61,104 nt of DNA from a virus. The stretch covers positions 1 to 61,104 of the IMG/VR virus record IMGVR_UViG_3300027833_000051, one strand, 5' to 3'. Numbering within the stretch: the stretch's first letter is position 1; every line of letters starts with the position of its first letter. Position numbers and translations under genes: made by a program. The notes beneath the pieces were generated by a model. It did not search any database. It saw only the letters and a program-made list of their open reading frames with translations, and was not told the origin of the DNA. Of this stretch, positions 3,077-48,900 are shown piece by piece.

Positions 3077-3102
3077 TATGATCTTCCATTAACTGCTTAT
3101 AT

Positions 3103-3110
3103 TATTTATA
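3103..3110 (-). promoter_or_regulatory. T4-type late promoter, exact consensus
   Basis: The minus strand reads TATAAATA, the exact T4 late promoter core, 27 bases upstream of the small terminase start. It falls in the gap between the sulfotransferase stop and that start, so terminase expression can be independent of the upstream genes. Confidence 0.7.
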
Positions 3111-3125
3111 CTATAAACACCGGCA

Positions 3126-20158: not shown

Positions 20159-20183
20159 TAGCGCCTGTTTCTAATAGAATATT
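20142..20183. terminator. Bidirectional terminator-like inverted repeat
   Basis: A perfect 13-bp inverted repeat (AATATTCTATTAG at 20142-20154 and its complement at 20171-20183) with a 16-base loop spans both converging stop codons. It is AT-rich with no long U-tract, so it may stop or stabilise both transcripts. Confidence 0.6.
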
Positions 20184-23769: not shown

Positions 23770-24489
23770 TTAACTTACGCCACCTGGTAATTGTGCTATA
23801 GCGTCTGCATCGTCATCTGTTCGATCTGCAATCCTAATAACCGGTACGTCTGGATCATCAAAGTCTGTATCATACGTTTCATCAGGCGCCATCGGAAACT
23901 TTATTAAGTCATTAGGAACATCTGCCCATTCGCTAGGAAGATCTCTAAGACGCTGTCTATAATTCGTCCAAGCAGTTCTTAATGATTCTGGCATATCTGG
24001 AGCAAGTTTTGAATCACTTGCAGCTAATCGGCTATTTCTTTCATCTCTAATAAATTCATCGCTTCTATCTCTATCATTTGTCACGAATTCTAAGTCTGCT
24101 GTAAAATCTTCCTCTACAGTATGTATCTTATAAATCGCTCTAATGTCTGAAGGATCACTAATTGCATTATTTGGCAAATCACTAGGGCCTACTTCTATTT
24201 CGTATACTTTTGGAGTGGCCAGGCCGCCATATATTAGTCCAATTTTCATACAATTTATATCTGAGTCTGCACGTAATATTTCAACACGTTGATTTAATGC
24301 AGGGTCTCTATCAGTTAAATCGTCCGGAGCTGACCATATATCTTCTACAATGCCACTTTCGTCATCGACCCAAAGGATTATCTCTGCAGGTCCTTCGTAT
24401 AGCTGTGTACTAGTTTTACCTAGTGTAGTGGCTGTTGAATACATTTCATCTGGTACAGCGTATGTTAATAATCGAGTTACTGTTGTCAT
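23770..24489 (-). CDS. Tail-fibre-assembly/chaperone-like protein
   Basis: 239 residues, acidic. Near residue 165 it has L-R-T-A-W-T-N-Y-R-Q-R-L-R-D-L-P followed by P-x-D-x-x-K-F-P-M-A-P, the signature found at the end of many phage tail assembly chaperones (Phage_tail_APC-type: Y-R-x-x-L-R-D-x-P, then W/F-P-x-x-P). The N-terminal 150 residues hold a beta-rich segment (EIILWVDDESGIVEDIW near 33) and the C-terminus is acidic and probably flexible. It follows the Cys-rich adhesin-like gene by 12 bases. A role in folding or loading the neighbouring fibres is the natural reading. The motif is clear; the client protein is unknown. Confidence 0.7.
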   Translation of the reverse strand: MTTVTRLLTYAVPDEMYSTATTLGKTSTQLYEGPAEIILWVDDESGIVEDIWSAPDDLTDRDPALNQRVEILRADSDINCMKIGLIYGGLATPKVYEIEVGPSDLPNNAISDPSDIRAIYKIHTVEEDFTADLEFVTNDRDRSDEFIRDERNSRLAASDSKLAPDMPESLRTAWTNYRQRLRDLPSEWADVPNDLIKFPMAPDETYDTDFDDPDVPVIRIADRTDDDADAIAQLPGGVS

Positions 24490-27896: not shown

Positions 27897-30800
27897 TTAT
27901 CTTGCTAGGAAGAATCCAAGTGCAACTGGTGCACCGTCGACTCCGCCTGTAAAGTTCATCTTAGCTGTAATATTTAGCTGTCCGCCACTGGTTGTTGTAA
28001 TTTCATCGTTAGCAATAAACACTGTACCTGCTGTTAGCGTGTTAACGTTCAAGCTACTTTGTCCACCACCAATTTGTGCAGTAATATAAGATTTAATTGC
28101 ACGTTGTGTAGGAACAACACTGTCACTATTTGCAGTAAAGAATGGATCTGTACTAAACTGTGTAATAATTGCAGAGCCAATACCTAAACCAATACCTTGT
28201 AGCTGTAATGATTGTAGTCCTGCTAAGTTAAACGCATCAGCGTCCAATGTCGCAGTACCTGTACTCTGTTGTACTCCAAACAATCCGCCAACATTAAAGT
28301 TACCGTCTTGGTCAGTACTTGTAAAGAATACTCGTCCACCTTGACTGCCAAGGAATTGTCTTGATTGCAGTGCTGTTGTAATATCCACAAATGGATAATT
28401 TGTATCAGCTTGGTTACCAGTACCAATGTACAAGAAGTCGTGTCCTGTTAGACGTACTTGTGAATACTTGTTAGTAGCAGTTATTTTAGTTCCATCTAAT
28501 GGAGCATTTAATATAGTAAGTGCTGGACTTATTTGGAATGTTGCAGTATAATCACCTGCTAAGCCAATTACGTTATTAACAGCAACTAGTTTATAGAAAA
28601 CTCCTGGAATATTACCAAACTCAACGTTTGATCCTGGCTCTGGTAAGTCAAATAGTCCGCGAACTGCAACAAATGTACTTGCTTGGAACAAGTCTGCACT
28701 ACCATCGCCGCCTAATTCACCAGTAGCAGTTTGATATCCTGTACCTCTATTAGTAAACGTTGGATGACCTAATACTCCGTCACCTTGTCTAGCATCTGTA
28801 GGAGCAACAATAGTTGAATTAGGATCTGTAATAGTTACAATTGGTCCTGTTCTAAACGTTGCATTTGCAAATGTAGCTGTGCTTAATACAACTGGCGTTC
28901 CGCTATTAGCAATTAAGCTTACTGTAATTGTAGTACCATTTGGAATAGTATTAATATAGTACAATGAGTTATTAGTTAGTAATGCATCACCTACGCCTGT
29001 AAACTTAATTTGCTGTCCAACTAACAAGTTGTCAGTTGAGTCAATAGTAATAGTGTTTGCAGCCGTTGTACTTGCTACAGTACCTTTTGGATAACCTGAT
29101 CCTGGTTCTGTTATTCTAATTTCGTTTACAGATCCGTCTGCTTCTTTTAGTCTAGATTCAGCAGTTGCACCAGTTTTTAGTACTGACACTGCGGTGTTTG
29201 CCGCATTAGTCAATGCTACCCATCTTGGATTATTATCTGTGTTGCCAAACGCTAATGCGTTCCAATCTCCGCTTGCAGATAATGTTTGTCCAGTCCAAGT
29301 AACACCATCGTTACTTATTGCACATGCATCAGTACCTTCAGCTATAGCAACAAATAATCCATGTCCATATTCAACTTTTGACCAAGTTTGACTTGACGGA
29401 AGACCAGCAGCACTTGCGTACCACGTTGTTCCGTTATCAATACTATATGCAGCACTTCTGCCACCACTAGCAATTGCTACAAAACGACCGTTACCAAAAG
29501 CAGTACTTGACCAAGTAGTACTTGCTGGTAAGTTGCCTCCTTCTGCCCAAACAATACCGTTTGCACTTACTGCTGACTTATTACCGCCAGTGTTAATAGC
29601 TACGTACTTACCTGCGCCATGTGCCACACTTGAGAATGTACCTGCACTTAGTGCAATATTATCTCTTGATACCCATGTACTACCGTCTGTTGATGTTGCT
29701 GCGCTGCCTGATCCACCTGTTCCGCCAACTGCAACATAAGTGCCGCCAGCATAAACAATATCTGTAAAGTTATTGTTTGGTAATGCTGAACCTGCACTCC
29801 AAGCTGCATTTGCAGCAGCTGATAGTGCTAAGTTTGTATTAGCAGTAGATCCATTAGCAATAGCAACAAACTTAGCGTTTGTATCAACAATAGTTACTGT
29901 CGGAGCACTAGTGTAGCCAGCGCCTACTAATGGTTCGTCATTGCCGTCTAGTGTAAAGTTAATTGCAAATACGCCGCCGTTATCCATTGTTGGAAGTACA
30001 GTAGCTTGTGTGCTTGCGCCTCCACCTGATATTGTAACAGTCGGAGGACTAGTATAACCTAATCCAAAGCTATCAACGTTAACTTCAGTAATTTTATCTG
30101 TTTCAACTGATATTGTTGGTGCTGCTCCGTAACCTGCGCCAGTAGTAGTAATAGTTACTTCTTTAATTACACCATTAAGTACTGTACACACTGCTGTAGC
30201 TGCGCCACCGCCGTTTGTCGGTACAAGGTTAAGTGTCGGAGGTGATGTATAACCTTTTCCGCCATCAACGATTGTAATTTTAGCAACCTGCGTAGGACCA
30301 GGTAAACCAATGCTGTTAAGCTCGCCTAGTTCTGCTGTTAGTATAGCACCAGATCCACCTAAACCACCTACTACAGCACTTGCTGTAGCGCCTTGTCCGC
30401 CACCAAATGCCATTGCTGTCCAGTTAGCACTTGCAACTGCGCCACCAGCAGCCCAAGTAGTGCCGTCTGTTGAATACGTTGTAGCTGTGCCACTATTTTG
30501 TAATGCAACATATCTTCCTGCAGCGTATGTAGCTGCTTTATATGCTGTAGCACTATCTGTTGTAGTTGCTGTTGACGTAAATCCTGGAGCACTATATGTA
30601 ATACTTGGTTCAATAGTATAACCAGTTGTTAAGTCTAAGTTAGTTGCAATTGGAGTACCTTTAACAATATGATCCCAACCTGCTGCATACAATGTTACAG
30701 TTTGTGCAGTTGTAGTTGTTAATGCTACGGCTGCTCCACCTTCTGATGTACTTACAGTAAATGTAGTAGTATTTGGAATTGTAAGTACATAGTAAACTGT

Positions 30801-33800
30801 GTTAGCAGCTAAGTTACCAATTGCTGTACTTAGGTATATTGGCATGTTTACATATAAACTAGCAGTGTCAGCTACAGTTAGTACATTACTAGTTACAGTT
30901 GTTCCAGTAACAGTTTTGTTATCAAAACTATCTTTGTAAACTTTACTGATCTTAGTACCGTTGTTAAATGTTAACACTCTTGCAAACTGTCCAACACCTG
31001 TACCAGCAGTTAATATAATATTCATACCATTATATGCATTTGCTAGTGCAGTATCAGTAGCAGCAATAGTTACTTGTATTTCATTACCACCCTGTGCAAC
31101 GTTTTTAGCTGTTACATAATTTTCGCCGCCTGTCTCGTCGCCATCATCTAAGTCAATTAAGCGAGTTTCCATTATGCCGCCGTCTCTAAACTCGTCAGCA
31201 ATAACAGCAGCGTTAAATCCATCACCACTAATTGCAAAAGATGCGTTAGTGTAATCAGTACCTGCGTTATTATATTCTAGACGTAGAACTGCTTCGCCGT
31301 CTGTAATAACATTACCAATAAACGCATCATTTGATAAGTTATTAACTTCAGCAAACAATGGAATCTCACCAGTGTCAGTGCCTTCAGCAATAACACCGTA
31401 AGTACCATATGAACTGTTACCGTTAGTAGCACGAATACGTCCGCCTAAATCTGCAACATATCCTGAATAGTTATAGTATGAGAACACAGATACAAGCTCT
31501 GTTAATGAGTTGTTACCTGTACACCATACACCAATACCATCTGACAATACTTGTGTAAAGTCATTTGATACCATTGAACGGTTTCCGCCTGCGTGTAATG
31601 CTCCGTCGATCTTATTACCAACACAACCAACGCCAAAGTTAGTTACATTTTGAATATATGGTGATTTATTAGTAACCCATGCTTCACTATCATTTGGACC
31701 AAATCCTGGATCAAGTGCAACAAATGCACCTGCTGTAGGACGTCTTGTATTAAATTCATTAAGCTCAGTTAAGTTACCGCGTAATCCACTTAATGTTTGG
31801 TTACGTACACCAGTTGAGTTTCGTACACGATACAAGTCTGATCTTTCAGAACCATTAACAGCGTTTAAGTAAAGTTCTGCTGCTCTTAGTGCATGGTGAT
31901 TGCCCGGATACTGTAAATCGTATGTAATTGATTCAACATAGCGTATCATATCTCTGCGACATAATGCTTCATCGAAACTATAACTAACAACTGCTACTGA
32001 CGGACTGCCAGCTGTTGCAATTGCGTCTCCGCCTAAAGTTGCTGCTACTTCAATAGTTAGTTCATCAGTACGAGTAACAACATAATAAGTTACTCCTGCT
32101 GTTAATCCAAGTTCACTAACATCAAGCTTTATAGGATCTCCAACTACTAAGTTATGTGGAGTTGCAAAACCAATAGCTGCACTACTTGCACTTGTAATTG
32201 TTCCGCCGTACTGTGACTTAATCCAAGCTGTTGCTTCATTTGCAAGGAAGTTTGTATTAGCTTTAAGGATGTCAACACCTTTAATAACTTCAACATCATT
32301 TTTATAAGTGATTGTGCCAGTAACTTCTGGAGTTACGTTGCTGCCAAAGTCTAATACACTAATAACAATATCCATTAAGCTATTAACACGTTTTCTTGCA
32401 TTAGCAGTATTAAGTACGTCAAGTAGGATATCAGTGCTAGAAACATATGATGCTGCTACGTTTTTCAGTTCTCTAAATGATTGTACTGTAGCAGTTTTTT
32501 GTTTATTAAGCACCACGTCAGCTTGTGTTCCACGATAGTAAGACAATGCTGCAATAACAGTACGATAGTTACTATCCGTCATTAGATCCCAAGTCATTGC
32601 TTCAACAATTAATCCTACATCACGTTTGCATGTTTCTTCAACATACACAAGTGTTGGGTAATTTTCTGCAATATATTCGATAATTGCAGTTTTAATTAAC
32701 TCAACAGACCCTGCCAAGTTAGTAGCTTGTTGTTTTAGACTTGCATTAATACCAGTTGTCGTTGGACTATATGCCCAGACTTGAAGCACTTCTGTCGACG
32801 ATGCTTCATCTTGCATTACTGCCGTTGCGCCTTCAAAATATCTAGTTAATGTAAGCGTAGATGTTGTTGGAGTTGTTTTTACATAATATACTGAAGTAGA
32901 GTCAAGACCAGTAATTGAAGCTACATAAACTTGATCGTTTACTGCAAGACCGTGTACTCCGTCAGTAGTTATTACATTGGATGCAATACTAACTAAATTA
33001 ATTGTAGGTAGCGCAGCAATGCCTGTATCAATTATAAGTTTTAGTTGATCTATTAGTTCACCGACTCGTGTTGTTGTTGCTGCATCGCCAATTGTTTGTA
33101 CATCAGCATCTCTATACTTAGGAACAATAGCAGTTTGTATTGCACCTGGACTACCAAGTGTATTTTGTGCTAGGTCGCCTGTTAAGAATTTTGCATGATC
33201 ATACGCTGCAATTGTTGCTACTTTATCATCTTCGCTAATTACAAGTACTGCATTTTTATAATAAGATAATCCAAATTCATTTGTTGCACTATTACCACCG
33301 TATGTTAAGTCATAACGCAGCGCATCAACTAACATGCCTACATCTCTTTTACATTTTTCTTTACCGTATTCATTAGTTGGATATTCTTGATCTAAATATT
33401 CAATAACTTCAGTTTGAATAAATTCTTTATTTTCCCAAATAATTGCTGCACCGGCTACGTCTTGTGTATCAGTAGTCGATGTTGCTTGCCACTTAACACT
33501 TGGCTTCTTGCCGCCGTCAATAAACGATGTAATTTCATCAATAATTAATGATGTATGTGCTGATGCTGTAGTAGAAGCAATGTGTTTAACTTTGTAGGAT
33601 AAGAAATTAACTGCACCAATAGTAGCTTCTAATTCATTATTAGTTACTTCAGCTGTTGACGTTAACGCTCTATAATAGCTCATACCTGCTTTAATAGAAG
33701 CAAAGTTTGATCCTGTAACTAAGTCACGTGCTAATGCATCAACCATTAAGCCTGCATCTCTACGACATGTTTCTTGATTGTATTTTATTTTCTGCCAGAA

Positions 33801-36800
33801 TTTTTCAACCCAAAATACAACATCTTCAATAATTTCTAATCTGCGACTTACAAGATTATTGTAAGCAGCTCTTGTATCTGGTTCTGCCCAGGCCGTTGCA
33901 ATTTCAATAGTTGCATTTGGCTCAGCGTTGTTAATCCAATCTAATACATCATCTACTCTGTCATCTGCAAATTCAATTGTAAATGCGTTGCCAGCTGTTC
34001 CTGATGTGTCTTGTGTTAAGTTATTACCTGGTGATTTTGTTACAGTTGTTTCTGCAATAACTTCACCAATTACTGTTTTCATTCTAGCATAAGCTGCAAG
34101 TGTTGCTGGAAGTTCGTCCTGACCGATAGTTAATACAAAGTTTGAATAATATGCACTACCTGCAATTAATGACTGTGTATTGCCGCCGTATGTTAAATCA
34201 TAACGTACTGCATCAACAATATATCCAATATCTCGAATACAGTTATCTTGTGCAGAACTGCTTAGTGTTCCCCAAAATGTATCATAACTATTTGTTGAAT
34301 CTTCTAACCACTTACGCACTTCTAATTGTATAAACGCTTCGTTGGCGCCTAGTTGATCAGCAGCATTACTATAAGTTGCAACTGCTCCAGTTGTATTTGT
34401 TGCTGTAGCATATGCAAGGTCAGCAGTTAAATTAGTTGGCATAGTAAGAACATATCCAGGCAGTGCTTCTAACCCGTTTTGCACAATATTTTTAATATCG
34501 TTTGCTCTTGCAACTGCTACATTTGATTCAGCAGTTGTTCCAACCTTACTTTCAATACCTTCTGTAAGCTGAAGTAACGCTTGTTCAATAAAGTTAATAG
34601 TACTAATAGTCGGATCTAGTTGATCTGCAAGAACAACTCCGGCTGATGCTACACCTCTAAGATAAGACATGCCTGCTTTAGCAGTTCTAAAGTCACTTCC
34701 AAATAGTACATCATAAACAATAGCGTCAAGTATATACCCTACATCACGTGAACATGTAGCTTCGTTATACACTAGTGCAGGATACATAAAGTTAATGTAA
34801 TCAATTGCTGCTTCTTGTATAATAGCTTTTCTGTTGTCTACTACTGATTTAAATTGCACTAATGCAGTATCAACCCAAGCAGTACTCGGACTAATTAATG
34901 CAGGGCTATCGCCTGTGTCAATTGTAGCTTTAATTTCGTTAATACGGTCTTGTGCAAATGCTGCTGCTCCTGCACTGCCTGCTGTTCCACTAACATCTTG
35001 TGTTGTTGTGTTACCAGTAGATCTAGTAATAGCAGATCCTGTAGCAACATCATCAATAATATCAGCTATTCTAGTTTGTACAGCAAGTGCTGCTACCTTT
35101 TGGTCGCTTGGTTCTTGTAGTACTCCATTAACATAATACGAATTAGCAGCAACAATAGTTTCTAAGTTGCCACGGTATGTTAAATCATAACGCATAGCAT
35201 CAAGTATATAACCAATATCCCGCAAACATTTTGCTTTGTTAGCTACACTAAGTGAAGTCCATAAAACATTGTAATTTGTATTCATATATGCTTCAACTTC
35301 ATCAATTAAGAATTGTTTGTTAGCAACAATTAATCTACGAGCGTTAAAGAACCCAGTGTCGTAACTAGTTGGATCTGTAATAGTAAACGTAGTTGGCTCA
35401 ACTGTAGATATCATAATATCTCTAATTAGCTCTGCGCTTGTTTCAATTTTATTATTTCCTGAAGTTATATTTTTAATTTCAGATCTTAAAAACTCAATAG
35501 AGTCCAATGTAGCAGATAGTTGACTATCAATAACAACGCCAGCTGATGCAATACCTCTACGATAGCTCATGCCTGCTTTTAATGATCTAAAGCTACTATT
35601 AAACATAATGTCAAATCGTAGTGCATCAATTATAAATCCAATATCTCTTGAGCATTTAGCGTGATCATAAACAAATCCACTATACGTGTTTGTAATAAAT
35701 TGTAGTACTGCTGGTACAACAGTTGTATTTGTTAGTACGTCATTTGCATCACTTTCGATAGCGTCAGCTACCCAAGTAATACTAGGATAAACTACTGCCG
35801 GAATGTTACTTAAACTTCCTGCATCAATTGATGTTATAAGGATATCTAATAATGTGCTTACTTCAGCCTCTTCAGTTGCGCCTGTCAAGTAACCGTTAAT
35901 AATAGTTTTTAGCTGTGTCATTGCTAATACTTCAATAGCTCTTTGTGCTACCGGAAGTACTGATACCCAACCATCAAAATATGCTTTTGTTGATTCGATT
36001 GTTGCACTGTTACCGCCGTAGTTTACGTCATAGCAAAGTGCATCAATAATATAACCAGTGTCTCTTTCACAAGTTGCAGTATCATAACTTAGTGAAGGAT
36101 AGTTTGTTGTGATCCAAGTTGTTAATGCACTAATAATAGCTGCACGATTGTCTACCATTTCTGTACGTGCATCAGTTTTTGCTTGTACAGAATTTGTAAA
36201 TGTTAATGCATCTGCACTTGCTACACCGTTAGTAATGATGTCAGCTACTTCAGCCCAATATGCAGTATTACGTGTAATTGAATCTGCGTCTGAAAGTAAT
36301 GCTTCTACTAATATTTTCTCTTGTGCAATTGCTCCTAGTGTTTCAGTTAATTGGCCTGTTAATACTTTTACACTAGAACCTCTACGATATGAAAGACCAT
36401 CTCTTACTGCGTTAAAGTTAGTGTTTAATGCAATATCATATGCGGCGCCAGTTTTTAGTATACCAGAATCTCTACGACACTTAGCACTATCATATACAAA
36501 GGAACCAAAGTTGCTATTAATATAATCAATAACAGATGATTGTAATGTTGCTTTAGAAGAAAGGATCTCAGTGTTAACTGTTGTTAACGGTACTGATACC
36601 CAACTAGTGTCTGGAGCAACTACACTTGGCAATGTTCCGTCATTATCAATGCAGTCATAAATTTCTTGTATGCGTGTATCTGCAAAAGTTTCAGCAGCAC
36701 TACTACCAGCATCGTTGTCAACGTTTTGTGCAACGTTGTTACCAGTTGTTCCTACAACCGTAGTTTCAACAATGATGTCACCAATGATTGATTTTAAGTG

Positions 36801-39800
36801 TGCATATGTTGCAAGTGTTTCGTCTTTCTTGCCAGTACCGTATACTGGGTTGCCGTTTACAAAGTAACTTCTTGCAGCAACAGTAGTCTCTGAATTACCG
36901 CCGTATGTTAAGTCGTAACGTAAAGCGTCAATAATATATCTAGTATCTCTTTCGCAATTTAATGTATTAAACGTAAAGTCTGCTGCAAACGGTGCAATTA
37001 CACCGTCAACTTGTGCTTGAATCCAAGCAGTTTGTTCTGCAACAATAAACTCAACGTTTGCTGTAAGTTGTGCAACTGCATTAGCAAATCCTGCATCACT
37101 TGCATTGTTTGATCCGCTTGTAGGTGTACTACCTATTGCCGGTAATGCTGGAACTTGATCTAATCCAAGACCTAAAACATCTTGAATTAATTCTACACCA
37201 ACGTCTAATCTATCAGTAGCATCTGTTGTTCCGCCGTAGCCGTTAACAAATTGCTGTGCTGCTGTATTTCCGCTAGTAGGAGTAATTTCAATATTTTGCA
37301 TAAGATCTGGAACTAACGCTTTAATTCTGTTTAAAGAACTAATAGTTTTAGGTTTATCATTTGCTAGTAATGCAATTGCTGGTTGTGGTTGAACAACACT
37401 TGTACGTAGTTCGTCACCAACAACAGCAGTAAATTCTGGAACAATAATCGGTAATACTTCGTTATAAGTGCCAGTTTTTATAAACAGTGTTGTGTTTGGA
37501 TTAGTTACAGTAGGAATAGCTGTTGCCGAACCTGCATTTAATCCAGTTGTAATAATATCTATCATTGCTGCTGCTTTTGAAATACCAGTAGCTTCAGCTG
37601 TTAAACTAGTGTCAATGACTTGTATTGCTCTATCTCCAAGATCAATATCATTAAATGACTGATAGTTTAATGGTTGTTTGTTAGCTAAAACATCAGCTAT
37701 AATACTTTTTAGCTGTACATTTGCTGCAACTGTTTGAGTCTTTTGAGAGCCAAACGTTCCGTTAATGTATAAATTTCCTGCAGGCGTATAATAAGATTTA
37801 GCAGCTTCGGTAGTTTTTAAAGTTCCGCCTCGTGAAACATCATATATTATTGCATCAATAATTAAGCCAGTATCGCGCTCACACTTAACAGAATCGTAAG
37901 CTAAGTCGCCTACCATTCTACCAGATTGCGTAGTTAATACTAACGGAATGCCGCTATTTTGTACAGTACTAATTCTAAATTTTGTTGCAGAAGTAGCAGA
38001 TTCAACATAGTAAATTGTTCCTGCTGTGACGCCACCTAATGTGCCGGCAAACACAATTGGCATGCCAGGTGTTAGATTAGCTGTTGACGCTGTAGTGAAT
38101 TCTTGTGTACCAACTTGTGATGCTGTAACAACTACTCTATATGTATAGCCAATCCAGCTAGACACTTCCTTCATCATAAATTCTTTATTATTTTTAAGAA
38201 TAACTTTTGCTTGTGGATTCAAATAACCGTCACGTACTTGCTCTAGTGCATAACGCACACTGCTCCAAGGTTTGTCAACTGTTAGTCCGTTTATTGGTGC
38301 TGGTATGTTTTCGCCTAGTGGGCCAACATAAACAACGTTGTCGATCAAACCGTAGTTTGCCCAACTTGGTTTACCATCAGTAACACGTAGAATTTGGCCG
38401 TCAATACCAATCGGTAGTCTTGTTGGTCCGTTGTCGCCGTAATAAACTAAGTCACCTTCGGTAGTTAATGATAATGCTTCTGAACCTAATGTTAGTAGAT
38501 TCCAGTATGCTGCAACTGCATCGTTGTCTGGTCTTTTTGCTGTATCAGCTGTGTGCTTTTGTACACAGATAAAACTACTTGCTCCAAAGAACACTACATC
38601 GCCTACATTGTAAACTGTTGTTGATTTCCAAGAAGATGAATTACCTACGTGTGTAATTGTGTCAATTGCGCCTGCTGTAACACCTGTTACTGTAACAGTA
38701 ATATCGTTAGCAGGACTAGTTCCACCAACATTTGCGCCGGAGATAGTAACAACGTTAGTATCAGCATATCCTGTACCAGCAAATCCTGTTGATACACTAA
38801 TTGAATAAACTGTATTAGCTTTTACAACATCAAAACGTGCGCCTGAGCCACTTACTCCAGTAGCATTTACAGCCTGTACTTGTAGGAATGTTTCAGTACT
38901 CTGAGTCCAGTTAACACCGGAGTTTAATCGGCTCCATGCAGCGTCTGTAGTAGGCTCTGCGTCAGCGTTGTCAGTTAGTGCTACATAAGTCGAGCCACCT
39001 AATCTAACAACGTCTCCGACCAAGTAACTAGTTAGTGAAGAATATTCGCCTTGGAACTTAAAGCCGGTTGTAAATACTGACCAATCATCTGCGCTAATTG
39101 TTGGCTTGTCGCCTGTAGTATTTCTTTTAGCAACATAAACGTAACCACCATAAGTTACCGTGTCACCAGTTTGGTATGCAGTTCCAATTGCCCATGAGTC
39201 TTCAAATTGGAAGCCTTCGATGAACGAATCAAATTTAGCTTCGTCTGACTCAAACGCATTTGATGTGTGCGCCTCAGTTACAATCCAAATATTGCCGCCG
39301 TACTTAACTAAGTCATTAACACGATATCTAGTTGCTGTTACCCAGTCACCTGTGTAAACAATACCGTCACTAAATAATGTCCATTTAGAAGAGTCAGCTT
39401 CTAAACCTAAAATATCTGTTGCTGCTGAAACGTGTGCAGTATTACAAACATAAACAAATCCACCGTAGCGAACTAGGTCATTTATTTTAAATCTTGTTGT
39501 GTTTGTCCAAGAACTTTTCCAATCAAAGGAAGTTGCAAACGCTGTCCATTTTGACAAATCATTTTCTAATCCTAAATATGTCGGTGATGCATATGTAGCT
39601 GATACGTGACCAGTTTCGCAAATGTAAACATTTGCACCATACTTAACCACGTCACCCGGAGCATATTCTACTTCAGATTCCCAATCACCTTTCCAACTAG
39701 TTCCGTCAGATACTATTTCCCACTTAGGTATTTCATTGGTAAAATCTGTGTTAAATTCTGATGCAGCAGTGTGATTTTTAATACATATATAAGATTTGCC

Positions 39801-39896
39801 ACCAAAACTTATAACATCGTCTGCAACATATGCTCTACCTGTTGCCCAGTCACCCTGCCATACAAATCTAATTCTACCTAGTTTAAATTCTGCCAT
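27897..39896 (-). CDS. Giant fibre/adhesin with CBM-like, Cys-Arg-Asp, beta-helix and Asp-box repeats
   Basis: 3,999 residues, far larger than any T4 fibre. From the N-terminus: seven CBM5/12-like units (W-x-x-x-x-x-Y, G-D-x-V-x-Y-G-G, Y-x-C, H-T/V-S) in about 1-450; twelve Cys-x-Arg-Asp modules (31917-37883), mostly alternating between two types; a beta-helix region with SPYIQNVTNFGVGCVG, GGNRSMVSNDFTQ and ATNGNSSYGTYG; then Asp-box/BNR-like repeats (S-x-D-x-x-x-T-W, FGNGRFVAIASGG). A G-Y-T-S-x-P-T-V-T-I repeat follows, one copy of which matches the carbamoyltransferase tail. The end shares F-x-S-T-D-Q-D-G-N-F-x-V-G-x-L-F and VPTQRAIKSY with the next giant protein. No signal peptide is present. 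It is probably a long trimeric host-binding fibre. It has its own late-type promoter. Confidence 0.85.
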   Translation of the reverse strand: MAEFKLGRIRFVWQGDWATGRAYVADDVISFGGKSYICIKNHTAASEFNTDFTNEIPKWEIVSDGTSWKGDWESEVEYAPGDVVKYGANVYICETGHVSATYASPTYLGLENDLSKWTAFATSFDWKSSWTNTTRFKINDLVRYGGFVYVCNTAHVSAATDILGLEADSSKWTLFSDGIVYTGDWVTATRYRVNDLVKYGGNIWIVTEAHTSNAFESDEAKFDSFIEGFQFEDSWAIGTAYQTGDTVTYGGYVYVAKRNTTGDKPTISADDWSVFTTGFKFQGEYSSLTSYLVGDVVRLGGSTYVALTDNADAEPTTDAAWSRLNSGVNWTQSTETFLQVQAVNATGVSGSGARFDVVKANTVYSISVSTGFAGTGYADTNVVTISGANVGGTSPANDITVTVTGVTAGAIDTITHVGNSSSWKSTTVYNVGDVVFFGASSFICVQKHTADTAKRPDNDAVAAYWNLLTLGSEALSLTTEGDLVYYGDNGPTRLPIGIDGQILRVTDGKPSWANYGLIDNVVYVGPLGENIPAPINGLTVDKPWSSVRYALEQVRDGYLNPQAKVILKNNKEFMMKEVSSWIGYTYRVVVTASQVGTQEFTTASTANLTPGMPIVFAGTLGGVTAGTIYYVESATSATKFRISTVQNSGIPLVLTTQSGRMVGDLAYDSVKCERDTGLIIDAIIYDVSRGGTLKTTEAAKSYYTPAGNLYINGTFGSQKTQTVAANVQLKSIIADVLANKQPLNYQSFNDIDLGDRAIQVIDTSLTAEATGISKAAAMIDIITTGLNAGSATAIPTVTNPNTTLFIKTGTYNEVLPIIVPEFTAVVGDELRTSVVQPQPAIALLANDKPKTISSLNRIKALVPDLMQNIEITPTSGNTAAQQFVNGYGGTTDATDRLDVGVELIQDVLGLGLDQVPALPAIGSTPTSGSNNASDAGFANAVAQLTANVEFIVAEQTAWIQAQVDGVIAPFAADFTFNTLNCERDTRYIIDALRYDLTYGGNSETTVAARSYFVNGNPVYGTGKKDETLATYAHLKSIIGDIIVETTVVGTTGNNVAQNVDNDAGSSAAETFADTRIQEIYDCIDNDGTLPSVVAPDTSWVSVPLTTVNTEILSSKATLQSSVIDYINSNFGSFVYDSAKCRRDSGILKTGAAYDIALNTNFNAVRDGLSYRRGSSVKVLTGQLTETLGAIAQEKILVEALLSDADSITRNTAYWAEVADIITNGVASADALTFTNSVQAKTDARTEMVDNRAAIISALTTWITTNYPSLSYDTATCERDTGYIIDALCYDVNYGGNSATIESTKAYFDGWVSVLPVAQRAIEVLAMTQLKTIINGYLTGATEEAEVSTLLDILITSIDAGSLSNIPAVVYPSITWVADAIESDANDVLTNTTVVPAVLQFITNTYSGFVYDHAKCSRDIGFIIDALRFDIMFNSSFRSLKAGMSYRRGIASAGVVIDSQLSATLDSIEFLRSEIKNITSGNNKIETSAELIRDIMISTVEPTTFTITDPTSYDTGFFNARRLIVANKQFLIDEVEAYMNTNYNVLWTSLSVANKAKCLRDIGYILDAMRYDLTYRGNLETIVAANSYYVNGVLQEPSDQKVAALAVQTRIADIIDDVATGSAITRSTGNTTTQDVSGTAGSAGAAAFAQDRINEIKATIDTGDSPALISPSTAWVDTALVQFKSVVDNRKAIIQEAAIDYINFMYPALVYNEATCSRDVGYILDAIVYDVLFGSDFRTAKAGMSYLRGVASAGVVLADQLDPTISTINFIEQALLQLTEGIESKVGTTAESNVAVARANDIKNIVQNGLEALPGYVLTMPTNLTADLAYATATNTTGAVATYSNAADQLGANEAFIQLEVRKWLEDSTNSYDTFWGTLSSSAQDNCIRDIGYIVDAVRYDLTYGGNTQSLIAGSAYYSNFVLTIGQDELPATLAAYARMKTVIGEVIAETTVTKSPGNNLTQDTSGTAGNAFTIEFADDRVDDVLDWINNAEPNATIEIATAWAEPDTRAAYNNLVSRRLEIIEDVVFWVEKFWQKIKYNQETCRRDAGLMVDALARDLVTGSNFASIKAGMSYYRALTSTAEVTNNELEATIGAVNFLSYKVKHIASTTASAHTSLIIDEITSFIDGGKKPSVKWQATSTTDTQDVAGAAIIWENKEFIQTEVIEYLDQEYPTNEYGKEKCKRDVGMLVDALRYDLTYGGNSATNEFGLSYYKNAVLVISEDDKVATIAAYDHAKFLTGDLAQNTLGSPGAIQTAIVPKYRDADVQTIGDAATTTRVGELIDQLKLIIDTGIAALPTINLVSIASNVITTDGVHGLAVNDQVYVASITGLDSTSVYYVKTTPTTSTLTLTRYFEGATAVMQDEASSTEVLQVWAYSPTTTGINASLKQQATNLAGSVELIKTAIIEYIAENYPTLVYVEETCKRDVGLIVEAMTWDLMTDSNYRTVIAALSYYRGTQADVVLNKQKTATVQSFRELKNVAASYVSSTDILLDVLNTANARKRVNSLMDIVISVLDFGSNVTPEVTGTITYKNDVEVIKGVDILKANTNFLANEATAWIKSQYGGTITSASSAAIGFATPHNLVVGDPIKLDVSELGLTAGVTYYVVTRTDELTIEVAATLGGDAIATAGSPSVAVVSYSFDEALCRRDMIRYVESITYDLQYPGNHHALRAAELYLNAVNGSERSDLYRVRNSTGVRNQTLSGLRGNLTELNEFNTRRPTAGAFVALDPGFGPNDSEAWVTNKSPYIQNVTNFGVGCVGNKIDGALHAGGNRSMVSNDFTQVLSDGIGVWCTGNNSLTELVSVFSYYNYSGYVADLGGRIRATNGNSSYGTYGVIAEGTDTGEIPLFAEVNNLSNDAFIGNVITDGEAVLRLEYNNAGTDYTNASFAISGDGFNAAVIADEFRDGGIMETRLIDLDDGDETGGENYVTAKNVAQGGNEIQVTIAATDTALANAYNGMNIILTAGTGVGQFARVLTFNNGTKISKVYKDSFDNKTVTGTTVTSNVLTVADTASLYVNMPIYLSTAIGNLAANTVYYVLTIPNTTTFTVSTSEGGAAVALTTTTAQTVTLYAAGWDHIVKGTPIATNLDLTTGYTIEPSITYSAPGFTSTATTTDSATAYKAATYAAGRYVALQNSGTATTYSTDGTTWAAGGAVASANWTAMAFGGGQGATASAVVGGLGGSGAILTAELGELNSIGLPGPTQVAKITIVDGGKGYTSPPTLNLVPTNGGGAATAVCTVLNGVIKEVTITTTGAGYGAAPTISVETDKITEVNVDSFGLGYTSPPTVTISGGGASTQATVLPTMDNGGVFAINFTLDGNDEPLVGAGYTSAPTVTIVDTNAKFVAIANGSTANTNLALSAAANAAWSAGSALPNNNFTDIVYAGGTYVAVGGTGGSGSAATSTDGSTWVSRDNIALSAGTFSSVAHGAGKYVAINTGGNKSAVSANGIVWAEGGNLPASTTWSSTAFGNGRFVAIASGGRSAAYSIDNGTTWYASAAGLPSSQTWSKVEYGHGLFVAIAEGTDACAISNDGVTWTGQTLSASGDWNALAFGNTDNNPRWVALTNAANTAVSVLKTGATAESRLKEADGSVNEIRITEPGSGYPKGTVASTTAANTITIDSTDNLLVGQQIKFTGVGDALLTNNSLYYINTIPNGTTITVSLIANSGTPVVLSTATFANATFRTGPIVTITDPNSTIVAPTDARQGDGVLGHPTFTNRGTGYQTATGELGGDGSADLFQASTFVAVRGLFDLPEPGSNVEFGNIPGVFYKLVAVNNVIGLAGDYTATFQISPALTILNAPLDGTKITATNKYSQVRLTGHDFLYIGTGNQADTNYPFVDITTALQSRQFLGSQGGRVFFTSTDQDGNFNVGGLFGVQQSTGTATLDADAFNLAGLQSLQLQGIGLGIGSAIITQFSTDPFFTANSDSVVPTQRAIKSYITAQIGGGQSSLNVNTLTAGTVFIANDEITTTSGGQLNITAKMNFTGGVDGAPVALGFFLAR
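30058..30143. repeat. 86-bp segment shared with carbamoyltransferase, copy in fibre
   Basis: This is the counterpart of 20795-20880. It sits in a run of related GYTSPPTVTI-type repeats of the fibre, so the fibre is the probable source and the carbamoyltransferase the recipient. Confidence 0.88.
31917..37883 (-). repeat. Twelve Cys-x-Arg-Asp protein modules, mostly alternating
   Basis: Twelve copies of C-x-R-D-x-G-x-I/L-x-D-A-x-x-Y-D lie near 37,860, 36,930, 36,460, 36,045, 35,635, 35,205, 34,730, 34,220, 33,745, 33,325, 32,605 and 31,940. They are spaced by about 410-510 bases in the middle. From copy 2 to 11, copies ending LTYGGN plus YY-x-N (type A) mostly alternate with copies ending in FRS-x-KAGMSYxRG (type B). 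This points to duplication of an A-B pair of about 900 bases. Confidence 0.85.
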
Positions 39897-39932: not shown

Positions 39933-42900
39933 TTATTGCTGTCCTGAACGTGTAGGGTCGACTAATGTCTTAAAGAAATAGGTCATTGCCAGACCATCCC
40001 CTGCCCATCCGCTGTTTCCAAACGGTCCGTCAAACATTGCTTTAGTCCCAATCTTAATTTGGAAGCCTTCAGCACCTTCTGGTACTGTAGATGCTATGAA
40101 ATCTGGTCCGCCTACTTTAACTGTACCTGCTGTTAATAAGCCTGTAAACGTATCTGAGCCACCTTGCGACAATCTACCTGTTAAGTATGTTTTAATTGCT
40201 TTTTGTGTTGGCACTATAGTATTTGAGTTAGCAACAAATGTACCATCTGTTGAAAATTGAGTTACAACTACCGGTGAACCACCTAGTGCAACTCCGCCGA
40301 TTGATAGTTCTGTCAGTCCGTCTAATCCAAACTCGTCTGCACTTAGTGTAACAATACCTGTAGCCTGTTCAACTGCAAACAAGTCACCAACTCTAAAGTT
40401 ACCATCTTGGTCTGTTGAACTATAAAACACTCGTCCGTTATTTGTTTCTTGTATCTCATCTTGTGGTTCTAAGTTTGTATTTTCAGGTAGTCCAGGATAA
40501 TTAGATTGTATCTGGTTACCAAATCCAATATTTAGGAAGTCATGGTTAGTTAAGCGTACTTGGCTAAACCTACTACGCATTGTAAATGTTGTATTATGTG
40601 CTGGGGATAATACTTCGCTCATAGTCGGTGATATCTGCACTGATGCTTCTAAGTTTGGAACAGTTGTTCCTCTTAACACAGTTGCTTTAGCAACACGATA
40701 TGTTTCATCGTTGCCTTCAAACTCAATGTTATCGCCTGGTTGCGGCAATCTAGTTAGATTCTTAAGGATAATACGTAACCCTGTTTGGAATATATCTGAG
40801 AACCCGCTACCATTAATAGCAATTGCTGTAGATGTTGTACTGTAACCAGTTCCATAATTTGTAAACGTTGGTGCACCTAATACTCCGTTACCTATACGTA
40901 CTTGAGTAATTGCATCTTTAGAATTATTTGGATCTAACAGAGTTAACGTAGGGGCTGTAGTATAACCCGACCCACTAGTTAACATGCCGAACCCGGTTAA
41001 TTTAGTAGCCGTAATCGATGCTCTTGATTGTGCTCTTGATCCTGTAGATATTTTAGATGCAATACCGCCAGTTGCTAGTGATAAGAACCAACCTTTTCTA
41101 GTAGTAGCGTCAAAACTAAATCCAAGACCAGTATAATCTAATGCCTCAACAGGAACAACTTTCCAATCTAATCCGTCTTCTGACTGTCGAGATATTCCTG
41201 TAACATTATCAATTAATAAGAATATTCCGTTACCATATGAAAGTATATCTCCCTGGATTTGTAAATTAGAATTATACCAAGTTATGCCATCGAAACTAAA
41301 TGCCGCTGACCTTAAATCACTTGATACTGCAACAAATCTGCCGTTGCCAAATTCAATTTGGTTCCAGTTATTAATTGTAGAATCGCCTGAATTATCTAGA
41401 GTAGATTCTACCCAAGTTGCACCTTTATCTGTGCTACATTTGACTGCATGTGACGAACCAGCAATAGCAACAAATATTCCAGCGCCAGCTGCTATGTCGA
41501 CCCATTCATCATCGTCTATAGATTGATCAACTTCGATCCAAGTACTAGCGTTATTTGTAGAATATGCCGATTTACTTGATGTACCTACTACAACAAAAGA
41601 TCCGTTAGTATAAGATATTGCTGTATAAAATTCATTTGCGCCAAGTGTTGGCAAAGTTGATCTTAACCATGTAGCACCTTCTGATACAGAGTATAATACG
41701 TCCCCTGCTCTAGATATAAGAACCCAGGTGTTATTTCCATACACCATATCTACCCAACCACCGTTATATAAAGGGTTGTTAATTAGTGATCCTGGATTGT
41801 CTGGATCTTCAATTTGTAAATTTGTGTCGCCTTCAACTGGCAATGTAATACTTACGTCCCAAGCTGTATAGTCTGATGTGGATAATGCTGCAAAGCCATT
41901 TTCAGGTATTGCTATTGGATAGAATCCATTTGATGCAATTATTTTATAAGTTCCAGCTTCACCAGTTGATGCTAATGCAGTTTGTGTAAATGGCGGAGGA
42001 GTATACTTAGTTCTTGGTTCAATAGCATATACAGATGTTGAATCAAAGACTCCGACTAACGGAGTGCCTTGATTGATATGATCCCAGCCAACTGCACCAA
42101 TCTGCATTGACCCAATGTCTTGTATTAGTTGTACTGGAGTACCACTATCTAATGTTGTTTCAATTGTCATTTCGTTAATAACAGATTCGCCCGTTGGTAG
42201 CGATATACTTGTTATTTGAGTAGCGCCTGGTGAAGCCTCACTGCCAGCTGGAGCAGTTTGTACAGTAGTTCCTTGTATGATCACGCCGCCTGCTGGCGTG
42301 TCTGACCATTGACTTCCGCCAGTTAATGTAACTGTTAATTCACCGTACGTTGTATCTGTTATTGTAAATGCAGCTAATGTTGAATCTTCACCTAGTGTAC
42401 CTAATGCAGTAAGAAGCCCTGCTGCTGGTGCTGTGTCAAGCCCAATATTTAATGTGTTTTCAATCCAGTTAGTATCAACTGTCCAGTTTCCTGATGCGTT
42501 ATAAACATCTGCAGGAGTTGTTTCAATTTTTTCAAGAACATAATATGTTGTGCCTAAGTCAATGCCACCGAACGTTTCAGTATAGAACGAAGCGCCCATA
42601 GTTGCTCCGCCGCCTGCTGAAACTGTTTCTTTAGTTCCAGGAGTTTGTGTAACCATTGTACCCGTGTCATCTGTTATAGAAACTGTATTTGCAAGTGTTC
42701 TAACAATGATGTTACCGGTTGCTGTTAATAGCGGAACTGCTGCACCTGCTGCTGTTTCACTAATAGTAAAGGTTGTTGCATCGTTAACAACCTGGATAAA
42801 ATAAACTTTATCATTTTCAATACTTCCAAACGTTGAACCTGTTAAAATAATAGGAGTGCCAGGAATAAAGCCAGCAGTACTAGTAACTGTAATCAAGTTT

Positions 42901-45900
42901 GTTACTGCTTGAGATGCAGTTGCATTTGTTGTTATTACAGAATCTGATAACGTAAATGTAGTACCGTCTAATAATGTATTAACCCAGTACTGAGTTTTTT
43001 CAAGTAATCCGCCAATTGCTCCTGATCTAAAAGTTATAGGGTTCATTGGTATTAATGTAGAAGTATCAGCAATAGTTAAGCTATTAGTCGATGCAGTTGA
43101 TGCAGTTGTGTCAAACGTTAATCTATTTGCTGATATTGAAAAACGAGTTGCATCATATATATCATGAATAAAATAAGTCTGACCAAGAGTAACTTCGCCT
43201 AAACTTGTTCCAGTAAATTGTACCGGCAATCCAACACTCATATCTGCTGTGCTAGATGCAGCTAGGTAACTAGTCTCTGATGGAAAGTTTATTGTAAACT
43301 GCGGATACTCAGATGTTAAAACAATCGGTGCGCCTTGCGGGTCATCAATATTAGTATTAACTAGTGGCCAAACGCCGCCACCTAGTGTTGTTGATATTTG
43401 AATTGTTGTGTCGTCAATTATATTAATAATAAAATAGTCAAACCCTACAGCTACTCCGCCAAATGGTGTTCCAGTAAAGTTAACTTTCTGTCCAACTTTT
43501 AACTGTGTAGTAGTAGTAACATACAAGTAGTTATTTAAATCACCTAACGCAGCTAGTACTTGTGTTGCACTCTGTGCTGTAGAATCAACATCAACATCAT
43601 AAAATGTTGGCGTAAACTGTATTTTCTGTCCAGTATACACAGTATTAAAGTCTACATCATCGTCTAATCGAAATCTATCTGATGTTGCATTAGTTGAAAC
43701 AATTTCCAAGCTCTCAAATGATTCTTTAAGAACATCTGCACGTTTATTGTTTGCATTATACCTAGATATAATACCGTATTGTCCTGATCCTACACCACTT
43801 GAAATACTTAGTCGCATACTTTCATATTCTGGTGCAGTTGCAACTTCTGAACCTGCAAGTACCAAGTGTTCAGAATCACCTGATTGTGCATTATTGGTTT
43901 GGAATTTATATCCTAGGCCGCCTGATGTAAATGCAGAACTTTCTAATACACGAGTTTGGTATACTCCGCCGCTGCGCAATTCGTCTGCAACGATCATAGC
44001 ATCTCTACCTGCACCACTTACATTAACATTTGCATACGATGTAGGCGTAGTATCATCTGTTTCTAAGAAGAATGATAAATTGCCAGTTTGTAACTGTGCG
44101 CCGTAAAAGTTAGTTTCGCCTGATAGTCCATCAGTACCACGTGGATATACTTTAAATTGCAATGATGTATTTTGTGCAGTAATGTCCCAGTATGAATAAG
44201 AAATTCTATACCATCCATCTTCAAGAATAGTTGCAGTGTATACTTCTGGAACAATTCCATTATCAGGATCTACTATTGTAGTTAACACCCCTGTAGTAAA
44301 ATTAAACCTTACAGCAGATGTTCTAGTGCTATACCCTGAGAATATTGAATACATATCAAAATATGATGCTGTACCTTTCTTAGCATAGATACTTGTAGTA
44401 TACCGCAACGATGTACCATCTGGTACAGTACCGTCATGACTAACTTGTAAAATTGCCGTAATAGATAGTGTATCCACAGTAACTATAATATCGTTAACTG
44501 TAGGTTGGGCTCCAAATAACTGGCCGCTAAGTCTAATTTGATTGCCAACAACATAACCGCTTCCGCCGGCATTTACACTAACTTGATATCCGTCACTGAA
44601 TACTGTTACATCAAAGGTTGCATCAATTCCTGATCCATCTTCGTTTACCCCTGCAACTCCGACATATACTCTACCTTGTGGCGAAACAGGAACATCTTGA
44701 TAAAAATAACTAGAATTAGTTAAGTCAGTAATACCTTCAATTTTCCAGGCATCTTCATTTACAAATGGAGTTGTTGCTGCTTTAACAATGTTAAGATTTC
44801 CGTCTGTCTGCCAGGCTGTATCTACAAGGTTATTACTTTGTGGTAATAAGTTTGTTGTAGTTTCGTAGTACTCTTCGCCAGCATGACTAAATGCTATTTT
44901 TAAAATTTCAGCTTGTGTACCTAGCGCACTAACTGCTAGTGCCGATGCTTGATTACTTCTGTTATTTACATTACCAACTGCTGGTACTTCGTCTTCTGCA
45001 AAGCCTTCTGCAATGGCACCAAATTGTCCATATGAACTGTTACCGTTAGTAGCACGAATTCTACCACCGTCTTCTGCAAAGTATCCTGTGTAGTTATAGT
45101 ATGAGAACACAGATACACATTCTACTAGTGCGTCACCGCCTGTACACCATACTCCGATACCGTCTGATATAATTTGTGTAAAGTCGTTACAAACTATAGA
45201 TCTATTACCACCATTGTGTAATGTACTATCAATTTTTAAACCTACACAACCAATACCAAAGTTAGTAACGTTTTGAATGTATGGTGATTTACTAGTAATC
45301 CAAGCAGTAGTGTCATTTACGCCTTGGCCTGGATCTAGTGCAACAAACGATCCACCTGACGGTCTACGTGTTGAATATTCATTTTGCGGAGTAAGTGTAC
45401 CTAGTAGACCACTCATTGTTAAGTTACGCACACCACAGCCATTTTGTACACGTATCATATCATTTAGAGCGTTTCCGCCGTATACATACATATAACCAAT
45501 ATTAGTTGTTAGCAATACTTCTTCACCATCTGGAGTTGCACTAACTTTAAATGCGCCATCTCTAATTGACGATCCAATCACATAGTATGTTATACCTTGA
45601 ACAATGTTTGGTCCGCCTATTTTTGTACTAATTTCGTCAACTGGATTTAATGATACAAATTGTACTGGTGTGTTGTTAACCATATTAACTGTTGACCCAA
45701 CACGGAATTCATTAATCTCGCCAAACGTTCTTGTGCATAATGTGTTAATTGGATTAAGAGGCTTAATAGCTGCACCACGAAGTTCGTCACCGTTTAGTGC
45801 AGTTTTTGGAGGAAGTACAATCGGTAGCGATTCTTCGTACGTACCTGATTTAAGGTTAATTGTAGTATACGCACCTTGATTTGCCGGAGGAATATTATCT

Positions 45901-48900
45901 GGCGATCCTACCTCTAGTGGCTCTCTAATAATCTTTTCTAACGCATTTAATTGAGTGATAGTATCAGCTTCAATTGTTAATGCTGCATTAAAAAATTGCG
46001 GTACTGGAGTTTCGTATCCTTCTAGTGTTTGATAGCTGTCAGCTGGAGCAGTATTAGTTAATGCTAATTCTAAAAAGTTAAATAGTTGTCCAATTACCGC
46101 TGTATAATATATTGCTTGATCAGCAACTGTTTGGTTAGTATATTTGTTTGTACTTTCTAGATCAAAATACGATAGTGCATTTGTAACAGTTCTTGCATTT
46201 TGATCTCTTGACAAGTCAGTTATTACACCGTCTATTGTATAACGTATATCACGTTTAGTAGAAGATTCTAAGAAATCTACTGAGAAATCAAATGGTGAAA
46301 TATTTTGGTTCTGTTGGTATAAAAACCAAGCATATGTTTCTTCTACAGCCCATAATTTGTTAGCTTCTAGTAATGCTTTTTCATTTGCTTTACTGGTTCC
46401 CTTTGCAACTTGTTCAGCTGCATATTTAATTGTTTTCCAGGCAGTATCAGCTGTTGTTCCTCGATTTACAGAGTCAACCCCGTTAGTTGCAACATAATAC
46501 ACATTTGGTGTAAAATCAGTTTCTCTCCAGGCTGGTAAATTATCTACAACCTTTAAAACATTTGTTTGTGCGCCAATAGATAGTGCTGTCTTATCCCCGC
46601 CTGCCTGCACAATAATTTCGCCCTTTTGGGTAAGTGAATTAGTTTTATCGTGTTGTAAGTATACAGTCCAATAGTTATTTTGTAGATCATAATCTGGTCT
46701 ATTTACAAGAGCCGAGGTATGCTCTCTTGTACATACATATGTTGCATTTCCGTAATACGCAATATCATCTTGATTATAAAGTGTGCCAATTAACCATTTA
46801 CCTTCCCAACTAAATCCCGGAATCATTAATTCCCAATAAGACCAATTAGTTCCTGCAAATGTTAATACTGCGCTGTCTGGAATAGTTCCACTTGGTGGAG
46901 AAGTTAAAATAACTGTAGTTATATCACCTACAGTAGTAACTGACTGCACTGTTTGGCCATAGGAAAAACCTTCGCCAATTACTGCCATGCCTACTGTGAT
47001 TCCTCTAGGATCAGTACTATCTAAAGTGTCCAATTTAATAGTAGTTCCACTAGATCCATCTGCTTCATAAATTGCATCTATAGTAAAGTTACCCGGTGCT
47101 TGGTTTGTACTGTCTGTAAGTGCAACATAAAGGTCGCCGCCGTATGTTACGACACTACCAATTAAGTATTCTTCTGCACTAGACCATGCGCCTGATACAT
47201 CATATGCTTTGCTTATTATATCCCATTCTTCTCCTGCACCTGTATTAAACGAAGGCTTTTGATTAATGTTATTAATTGTTAAACTTTGATATAAGTAACC
47301 ACCATATAGTACAACGTCACCTGGTTGATAAATTACATCAGCAAGCCATACAGATTCAAAATCAAGTCCTGGCATCCAAAGTTCCCAGTAAGATGATGTA
47401 AACGCATCTTCTATTACGTTTGGTGCATTTTGTATTTGGGCAACATACCCAGAAACACCTGCATCATTGTCTTGGAATATACTTCTAATAGTTGCTAAAG
47501 ATGGTTTTGATATAACTGTTGAAAAGTAAATATTAAACAATGCATAACCTAATGGGTTATTAGCAAGCACACCTGCTGGTGTTCTTGAATCATCACTCCA
47601 TTCTGGAGAAAGAGATCCGTTTTCCCACAAGCTTGAATATTCAAACATTACAAAGTTAAGCAAATATGTATATTCTTTAGATGCAACTCTATAGGTGTCT
47701 GCTGTTGCAAGATTTCCGTCGCCGTATCCTGAAATATCAAACACGCCTGCTGTAACAGCTTCTTCCATTGCAAGATACAATGCACTTGTTGCCCAGTTAG
47801 CATCTAAGTCAGGATCATAAGGTAATGCCGCAGCCGATCCGGCCTTTGCACCACTTACACCAAATAAATGTAGTGTATGGAATATATGTTCAATTACTTC
47901 TGCTGCGTCATCATCGCCAAAAAATGGACGAGAGCTATTTGAATTTAAATACCAAACCATATCGTTTGTAGCATAGGAGTTCAAGAAGTCTGTATAACCT
48001 GCATACTGGGCGCTACCTTCGTCTGTTAGCCAATTAGGTGTATATGATGCTCCGCTACCGTACCCTATACGCTGTGCTGTTGGATAACCTGCATGTGCAG
48101 TGCCTACATCACCTTTTAATGTTGCAATTAAATTTTCTTGGGCTGGATCATCGATCCCTGCGCCATCTCTGTCTAAGAATAACTGAACCATTCTTGCAAC
48201 TTTATTTACAAACGTTTCTGGTATTAATCCTACACCTTGTTCAGCAGCTACAACAATCTTAAGACCGTTAACTGTTAGACTTTTGTCAAATACTGTCCCA
48301 TTAGTTGCATCTGCCGCTAATACACTACTTGTATATACTCCAAGATTAGAATCATCTATGTATGCCGCTGCCGGTACGTGTCCTTCAATACATTTGTATA
48401 CACTTGGACCATACTTAACTATATCGTTTAATTTATATCTTACTTCTGTAGAGTCAACAGCTCTATCATCAAATAAGCCTCTCCACTGAATACCTTCTTT
48501 AACAAGTTTCCATTTAACTAGTGTACTATCAATGCCATAATAATCTGCTTCTAAGCCGTCAATGTCAGTATCAGCTGAAGTATGTGAAATTATACATTCG
48601 TAAGATGAGCCGCCGTATTGCACAATATCACCAATACCATAACTAGATGATGTTGTCCATTCACTCTGCCATGTTTTAGATTCTGCGTAAACGTCCCACT
48701 TTGCAATGTCAGTATCTAGTGTTGCGCCACTTGTGTGCTGTGTATTACACTTATAAACAATACCACCAAAAATTGCAATATTGTCTAAGCTGTAAAATGT
48801 AAATTGAGACCAAGGACCTTTCCAAGTCTGACCAGTCATCATTAAGTCCCACTTAGGAGTAACTGCACCTAAGTCGGAATAGAACGAATTTGATGTGTGC

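Follow-up and report, generated by a model that had tools for sequence, protein, structure and literature searches.

The window analysed here—the whole stretch of 61,104 nucleotides at positions 1 to 61,104 of IMG/VR virus record IMGVR_UViG_3300027833_000051—carries an open reading frame (ORF) for a tail fibre of 3,999 amino acids (aa; 27897..39896, minus strand), in which twelve phycobiliprotein-like modules lie between N-terminal CBM5/12 repeats and a beta-rich C-terminal part. We consider it very likely that the best overall explanation of these modules is a chain of phycobiliprotein folds in which the residues of the chromophore site have been kept. Homology to the phycobiliprotein superfamily and the shared fold are, on the evidence of sequence profiles and predicted structures, almost certain. 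Each module would be an all-helical member of the phycobiliprotein/bilin-binding-globin superfamily that folds on its own and was duplicated in tandem within a phage tail fibre, and the array would form a long fibre shaft of beads with a conserved pocket in each bead. Searches of open-access papers turned up no previous account of such domains in the fibres of phages.

The original prediction, made from the letters of the window, described a 15-residue motif, C-x-R-D-x-G-x-I-x-D-A-x-x-Y-D, recurring twelve times between positions 31917 and 37883 in units of about 150 residues. The span was confirmed, with the first and last motifs at 37883 and 31917, and so was the count for the core: C-x-R-D occurs exactly 12 times in the fibre, as compared with a mean of 0.04 and a maximum of 2 in composition shuffles (n = 1000). 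The full motif, however, is exact in only five of the twelve copies, and the suggested unit length compares with a median Cys-to-Cys spacing of 158 aa (range, 136–309 aa). Aligning all twelve units, a check that the prediction had proposed, revealed five invariant columns—the C, R and D of the core, the 'YD' Asp (D70) and, about 30 residues C-terminal of the motif Cys, a Tyr (Y86). A unit profile recovered 12/12 modules with E-values from 1e-33 to 1e-52, plus one Cys-less unit in the neighbouring fibre.

When the 12-unit profile was searched against the PDB, 33 of 177,635 sequences matched, all of them phycocyanin alpha (best E-value 1.5e-4). In these alignments the Cys, Arg and Asp of the unit are in register with Cys84, Arg86 and Asp87 of phycocyanin alpha, as is a Gly-Gly pair 18–19 residues past the Cys. 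A unit profile was needed because a single-sequence search with the whole fibre returned only proteins matching the CBM-type N-terminal repeats. The consensus unit gave the same outcome as the 12-unit profile, and 36 of the 38 PDB matches to a wider profile, built from 100 diverse units, were phycobiliproteins (best E-value 3.5e-4); aligned by hhalign to a single phycocyanin (1jbo chain A), the 12-unit profile and a second alignment reached Prob values of 89 and 77, respectively. The statement that no named domain with this motif was known did not stand, since the NCBIfam model for C-phycocyanin alpha (phycocy_alpha, TIGR01338) matched the whole fibre with an E-value of 9.6e-8 and the Pfam Phycobilisome family (PF00502) matched below its cut-off. 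When 100 units were searched one by one, no models other than those of phycobiliproteins matched more than one of them (Pfam, 6 units; NCBIfam, 10 and 2). Both curated cut-offs were missed—19.1 versus 22.2 bits for PF00502 and 32.2 versus 269 bits for TIGR01338—and the module is therefore not filed as a light-harvesting phycobiliprotein subunit. It has in common with phycocyanin alpha and other phycobiliproteins the C-x-R-D register, the Gly-Gly after the bilin helix, a similar preceding helix and, in the predicted structures, the all-helical globin-like fold. In contrast, the phage modules form a tandem array in a virion fibre, show only ~10–17% identity in structural alignments and carry Asp at the positions of phycocyanin Arg93 and Cys98 (at the Arg93 position, in 80% of units). 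Three PHROG families match the 3,999-aa fibre (4527, 5342 and 9851, of which 4527 and 5342 span the module region); all are annotated as tail fibre alone, with no domain or function named.

Structure predictions pointed in the same direction. AlphaFold2 was run without templates on input drawn exclusively from the window and viral-contig sequences, and modelled an A-B and a B-A pair of units (the two unit types are described below) with predicted local distance difference test scores of 93.4 and 90.8 and a predicted template modelling score of 0.90 each. For both models, each of the best 50 rows returned by VIA-align was a phycobiliprotein or else a bilin-binding relative or design (Z 14.3–15.8), with 117–169 residues aligned; many rows covered 120–150 residues at 2–3 Å, some having a larger root-mean-square deviation, and a lone B unit superposed over 128 residues at 2.0 Å. 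Foldseek assigned the model a probability of up to 1.00, and the matches of the same model in BFVD came from cyanophages and uncultured phages and were tail or structural proteins. As predicted structures, both unit types thus adopt the globin-like helical fold of phycobiliproteins.

The fixed Cys, Arg and Asp had been proposed to form a trimer core, a metal site or a ligand pocket, and the last of these guesses is the one that the fold and the register favour. Phycobiliproteins often use a CXRD motif, in which the Cys is covalently attached to ring A of the bilin and the other two residues hydrogen-bond the chromophore, whereas photoglobins carry CXQD (PMC10151467). By analogy with known members, where the Cys forms a thioether to ring A and both Arg and Asp hydrogen-bond the bilin, the three residues of each module would constitute a chromophore site. 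Both CXRD, as in BBAG-1/3, and CXQD are seen in phage units, a likeness drawn from the published motifs; CxQD is the commonest Cys-containing variant among them. The BBAGs and photoglobins are bilin-binding globins outside phycobilisomes and, unlike the phage fibre arrays, occur in cells as single-domain or fusion proteins. In a set of 425 non-redundant units, conservation is 94% for Cys, 92% for Arg and 99% for Asp, and 383 units have all three. The DNA motif used to find viral contigs is biased towards C-x-R-D, so conservation was also counted in the 297 units beyond its reach, where the values are 91, 89 and 98%. Loss of the Cys is linked to loss of Arg (p = 2e-14), Tyr86 (p = 2e-12) and Thr103 (p = 6e-8) but not to that of Asp70, a structural residue (p = 1). 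With units clustered at 50% identity the association still holds (Arg, 2e-8; Tyr86, 7e-8; Thr103, 9e-6), and the link persists at 40–50%—a pattern that fits a site retained or lost as one unit.

A candidate partner of the module is the cyanophage CpeT, a T-type phycobiliprotein lyase that, as an enzyme, is no relative of the module itself. Calling CpeT by Pfam PF06206 at the family cut-off in 26 T4-like cyanophage genomes, we found both CpeT and the module in 18, the module only in three (DSL-LC03, S-SKS1 and ACG-2014f), CpeT only in none and neither in five (P-SSM2, S-SM2, S-SSM7, S-CRM01 and P-TIM68), a co-occurrence with a Fisher p of 8.5e-4 when kinship is ignored. The split is exact in the 16 genomes of PMC3037559. 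Moreover, a full-length CpeT (183–189 aa) lies about 2 kb or less from a multi-module fibre gene in five phages: S-RSM4, S-CAM4, S-PM2, Syn1 and S-RIM32. All three site residues are kept in 27 of 36 units from four CpeT-adjacent phages, versus 7 of 33 in phages with a short CpeT, although these groups are probably also two lineages. For Syn1 (NC_015288) we noted a 187-residue CpeT frame at 19950-20462, while Table 3 of PMC3037559 lists no CpeT in this phage. In some members at least, the pocket would still be occupied by a linear tetrapyrrole, a proposition that we hold at slightly less than even chances. The loading of host bilin by the phage lyase during infection of cyanobacteria is possible but rather less probable than binding as such; other carriers might rely on lyase-free loading, with biliverdin as the ligand, and the bound bilin could stiffen, protect or help to position the fibre.

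Several observations weigh against this interpretation. As regards the fold, sequence similarity to solved phycobiliproteins spans mainly ~35–75 residues around the site, the best Foldseek E-value is only 0.084, and helical models may reach a VIA-align Z of ~13–14 by chance; the case consequently rests on the agreement between sequence and structure. As regards the ligand, the short-CpeT cyanophages mostly keep Cys and Asp but often lose Arg, the association with CpeT may rest on few events because the genomes are related rather than independent, and the adjacency of CpeT and fibre gene may be one inherited arrangement. The bilin reductases PebS and PcyA show no co-occurrence with the module (p = 0.52) and are present in 5 of the 16 cyanophages that carry it in the first set of genomes, and the S-type lyase CpeS was found in none of the 42 records tested. 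Finally, 37 metagenomic module contigs of at least 44 kb, which are fragments, contained no CpeT, CpeS, haem oxygenase or psbA/psbD gene. Because bilin-binding globins are able to load bilins without a lyase (PMC10151467), a missing lyase leaves a ligand possible, yet it weakens the lyase as a general rule.

The alternative that best survives these observations is a ligand-free co-option, to which we give a probability just short of one half: the phycobiliprotein fold would serve as rigid spacer beads or as receptor-binding domains, with C, R and D merely packing a helix junction. Such a role would agree with the metagenomic carriers, which lack lyase, haem oxygenase and photosystem genes, with the scanned ORFs of the window, among which there is no bilin gene and no CpeT, and with the unit of the neighbouring fibre that has no Cys, as well as with the many cyanophage units that lose Arg while retaining Cys. 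It accounts less readily for site residues whose conservation ranks near the top within the domain and which disappear jointly while Asp70, a structural residue, is retained, or for the co-occurrence of CpeT and module in cyanophages. A trimer core or metal site built from the fixed Cys, Arg and Asp is very improbable. The three residues are indeed conserved and phage fibres are usually trimers, but both the register and the predicted fold assign C-x-R-D to the helix that binds the bilin, and the unit alignment has no second conserved Cys or His to complete a metal site. Least probable of all is an unrelated helical repeat that converged on phycocyanin only around C-x-R-D, a notion that draws on the short sequence matches, Foldseek E-values above 0.05 and the Z near 13–14 that helical models can attain by chance, but that is at odds with three separate profile or sequence queries whose PDB matches are nearly all phycobiliproteins, with two models whose best 50 rows are all phycobiliproteins or bilin-binding relatives aligned over most of the domain, and with the Gly-Gly pair in register 18–19 residues past the Cys.

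The twelve phycobiliprotein-like modules, all on the minus strand, run from high to low window coordinates. Seven of them are defined by the C-x-R-D count, the unit alignment and the unit profile: module 1 (Cys672, type A-like, 37596..38048), module 2 (Cys981, type A, 36669..37121), module 3 (Cys1140, type B, 36192..36644), module 4 (Cys1276, type A-like, 35784..36236), module 5 (Cys1415, type B, 35367..35819), module 9 (Cys2044, type B, 33480..33932) and module 11 (Cys2423, type B, 32343..32795). Module 6 (Cys1557, type A, 34941..35393) lies inside the AlphaFold2 model m6c51ea01dbde; module 7 (Cys1715, type B, 34467..34919) is covered by model m178126bee807 and by the sub-threshold Pfam Phycobilisome match, and module 8 (Cys1886, type A, 33954..34406) lies inside the same model. 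The NCBIfam C-phycocyanin alpha match falls on module 10 (Cys2182, type A, 33066..33518), at residues 2168–2208, and the divergent, type A-like module 12 (Cys2646, 31674..32126) was placed by the unit alignment, the unit profile and the tree. A thirteenth module (46128..46397, minus strand; unit profile E-value 3.5e-8), which has Thr where the others have Cys (T-K-R-D), belongs to the neighbouring 3,029-aa fibre (39933-49022, minus strand), which contains this single degenerate module and is assigned to phrog_9851, a family that it shares with the 3,999-aa fibre.

Scoring against type A and type B profiles, read from the orthologous arrays on two related contigs (L125 and L003), gave the order A-A-B-A-B-A-B-A-B-A-B-A. 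The mostly alternating types predicted from copy 2 to copy 11 are therefore strictly alternating, and as far as copy 12, with 10 of 11 neighbouring pairs switching type (p = 0.0075 versus random order). Elsewhere among phages the types often alternate, though by no means always, with 307 unlike versus 127 like neighbouring units. Type B forms a single supported clade in the unit tree (96/95), while 'type A' copies 1, 4 and 12 fall outside any single supported A clade. Every position of the array groups with the same-position orthologue from related contigs, which implies that the array predates the divergence of these phages. The survey of repeat number in relatives that had been recommended found up to twelve modules per ORF and, in one relative (L127), a shorter array, most of whose units cluster with copies 1 and 6–12. 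This array is consistent with A-B pairs having been gained or lost as blocks, and it bears out in part the idea of growth by pair duplication; copies 1, 4 and 12 stand apart.

Our scan of viral contigs with a degenerate DNA motif matched at least 120 stretches, a lower bound on abundance, and modules were present in every locus examined among the matches listed, with the same maximum of twelve per ORF. The consensus unit further matched 290 phage records which, by the first word of their names, comprise 228 Synechococcus, 51 'Cyanophage', 10 Prochlorococcus and 1 'Marine'. The protein bearing the three modules of phage S-SM1 is T4-GC969, listed among the virion proteins of S-SM1 in published proteomics (PMC3037559), so the module domain is part of a particle. 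From the hosts of the isolates it might be supposed that the module is confined to phages of cyanobacteria; the lack of psbA in carriers from metagenomes and the tail sheath of the window, which is of a jumbo-phage kind, speak against such a restriction. The psbA gene is found in >90% of T4-like cyanophages (PMC10665884), so many of the psbA-free carriers probably infect other hosts or represent lineages without psbA. The tail sheath of the window (6559-9888, minus strand) is closest to those of jumbo phages such as Sinorhizobium phage Phosso, Xanthomonas phage XbC2, Pseudomonas phage PA5oct and Agrobacterium phage Atu_ph07. Its baseplate proteins, in contrast, are similar to cyanophage ones, and its fibres to those of T4-like cyanophages. 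The virus itself has the look of a jumbo phage of the Atu_ph07 kind and not of a T4-like cyanophage. A genome-collection scan also identified an ORF with ten modules on a 69.5-kb contig (L133; FZLS01000008.1) binned as Rhodobacteraceae bacterium Water_Bin34, which may be a phage contig in the bin or may hint at a non-cyanobacterial host. The second locus from that scan (L132) had no module and was discarded as a probable chance match.

Outside the module array, the 3,999-aa fibre has six CBM5/12-like repeats at its N-terminus (residues ~1–470) and, over residues ~2750–3999, repeats of beta-propeller/BNR-like appearance, e.g., 'STDGTTWAAGG' and 'AFGNGRFVA'. A further fibre protein (25350-27545, minus strand) ends in a C-terminal peptidase S74 (endosialidase-type) chaperone domain, and a tail assembly chaperone is encoded nearby at 23770-24489. 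Within the structural-gene region there is a TnsA-like endonuclease N-terminal domain (3710-4144, minus strand; E-value 1e-22). Genes for a sulfotransferase, a cytidylyltransferase/PfkB protein, an NAD-epimerase and a Nol-like carbamoyltransferase (3126-3710, minus strand; 17190-19141, plus strand; 20779-22692, minus strand) form a set that suggests surface-sugar modification.

The presence of bilin genes in cyanophages has been hard to explain: the role of cpeT was called unresolved and that of pcyA and pebS a mystery (PMC3037559). Our results raise the possibility, for now a tentative one, that the fibres of cyanophages, and perhaps of other marine phages, are true biliproteins to which bilin is covalently attached via CpeT, in which case the bilin genes would act in the assembly of virions, either instead of or in addition to the light harvesting of the host. 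A candidate acceptor of phycobiliprotein fold in a virion protein, tracking CpeT across phages, makes this role directly testable. If true, the present interpretation would bring tandem repeats of viral fibres into the phycobiliprotein superfamily—and it would give annotators a name for long stretches hitherto labelled 'tail fibre' or 'virion structural protein'.

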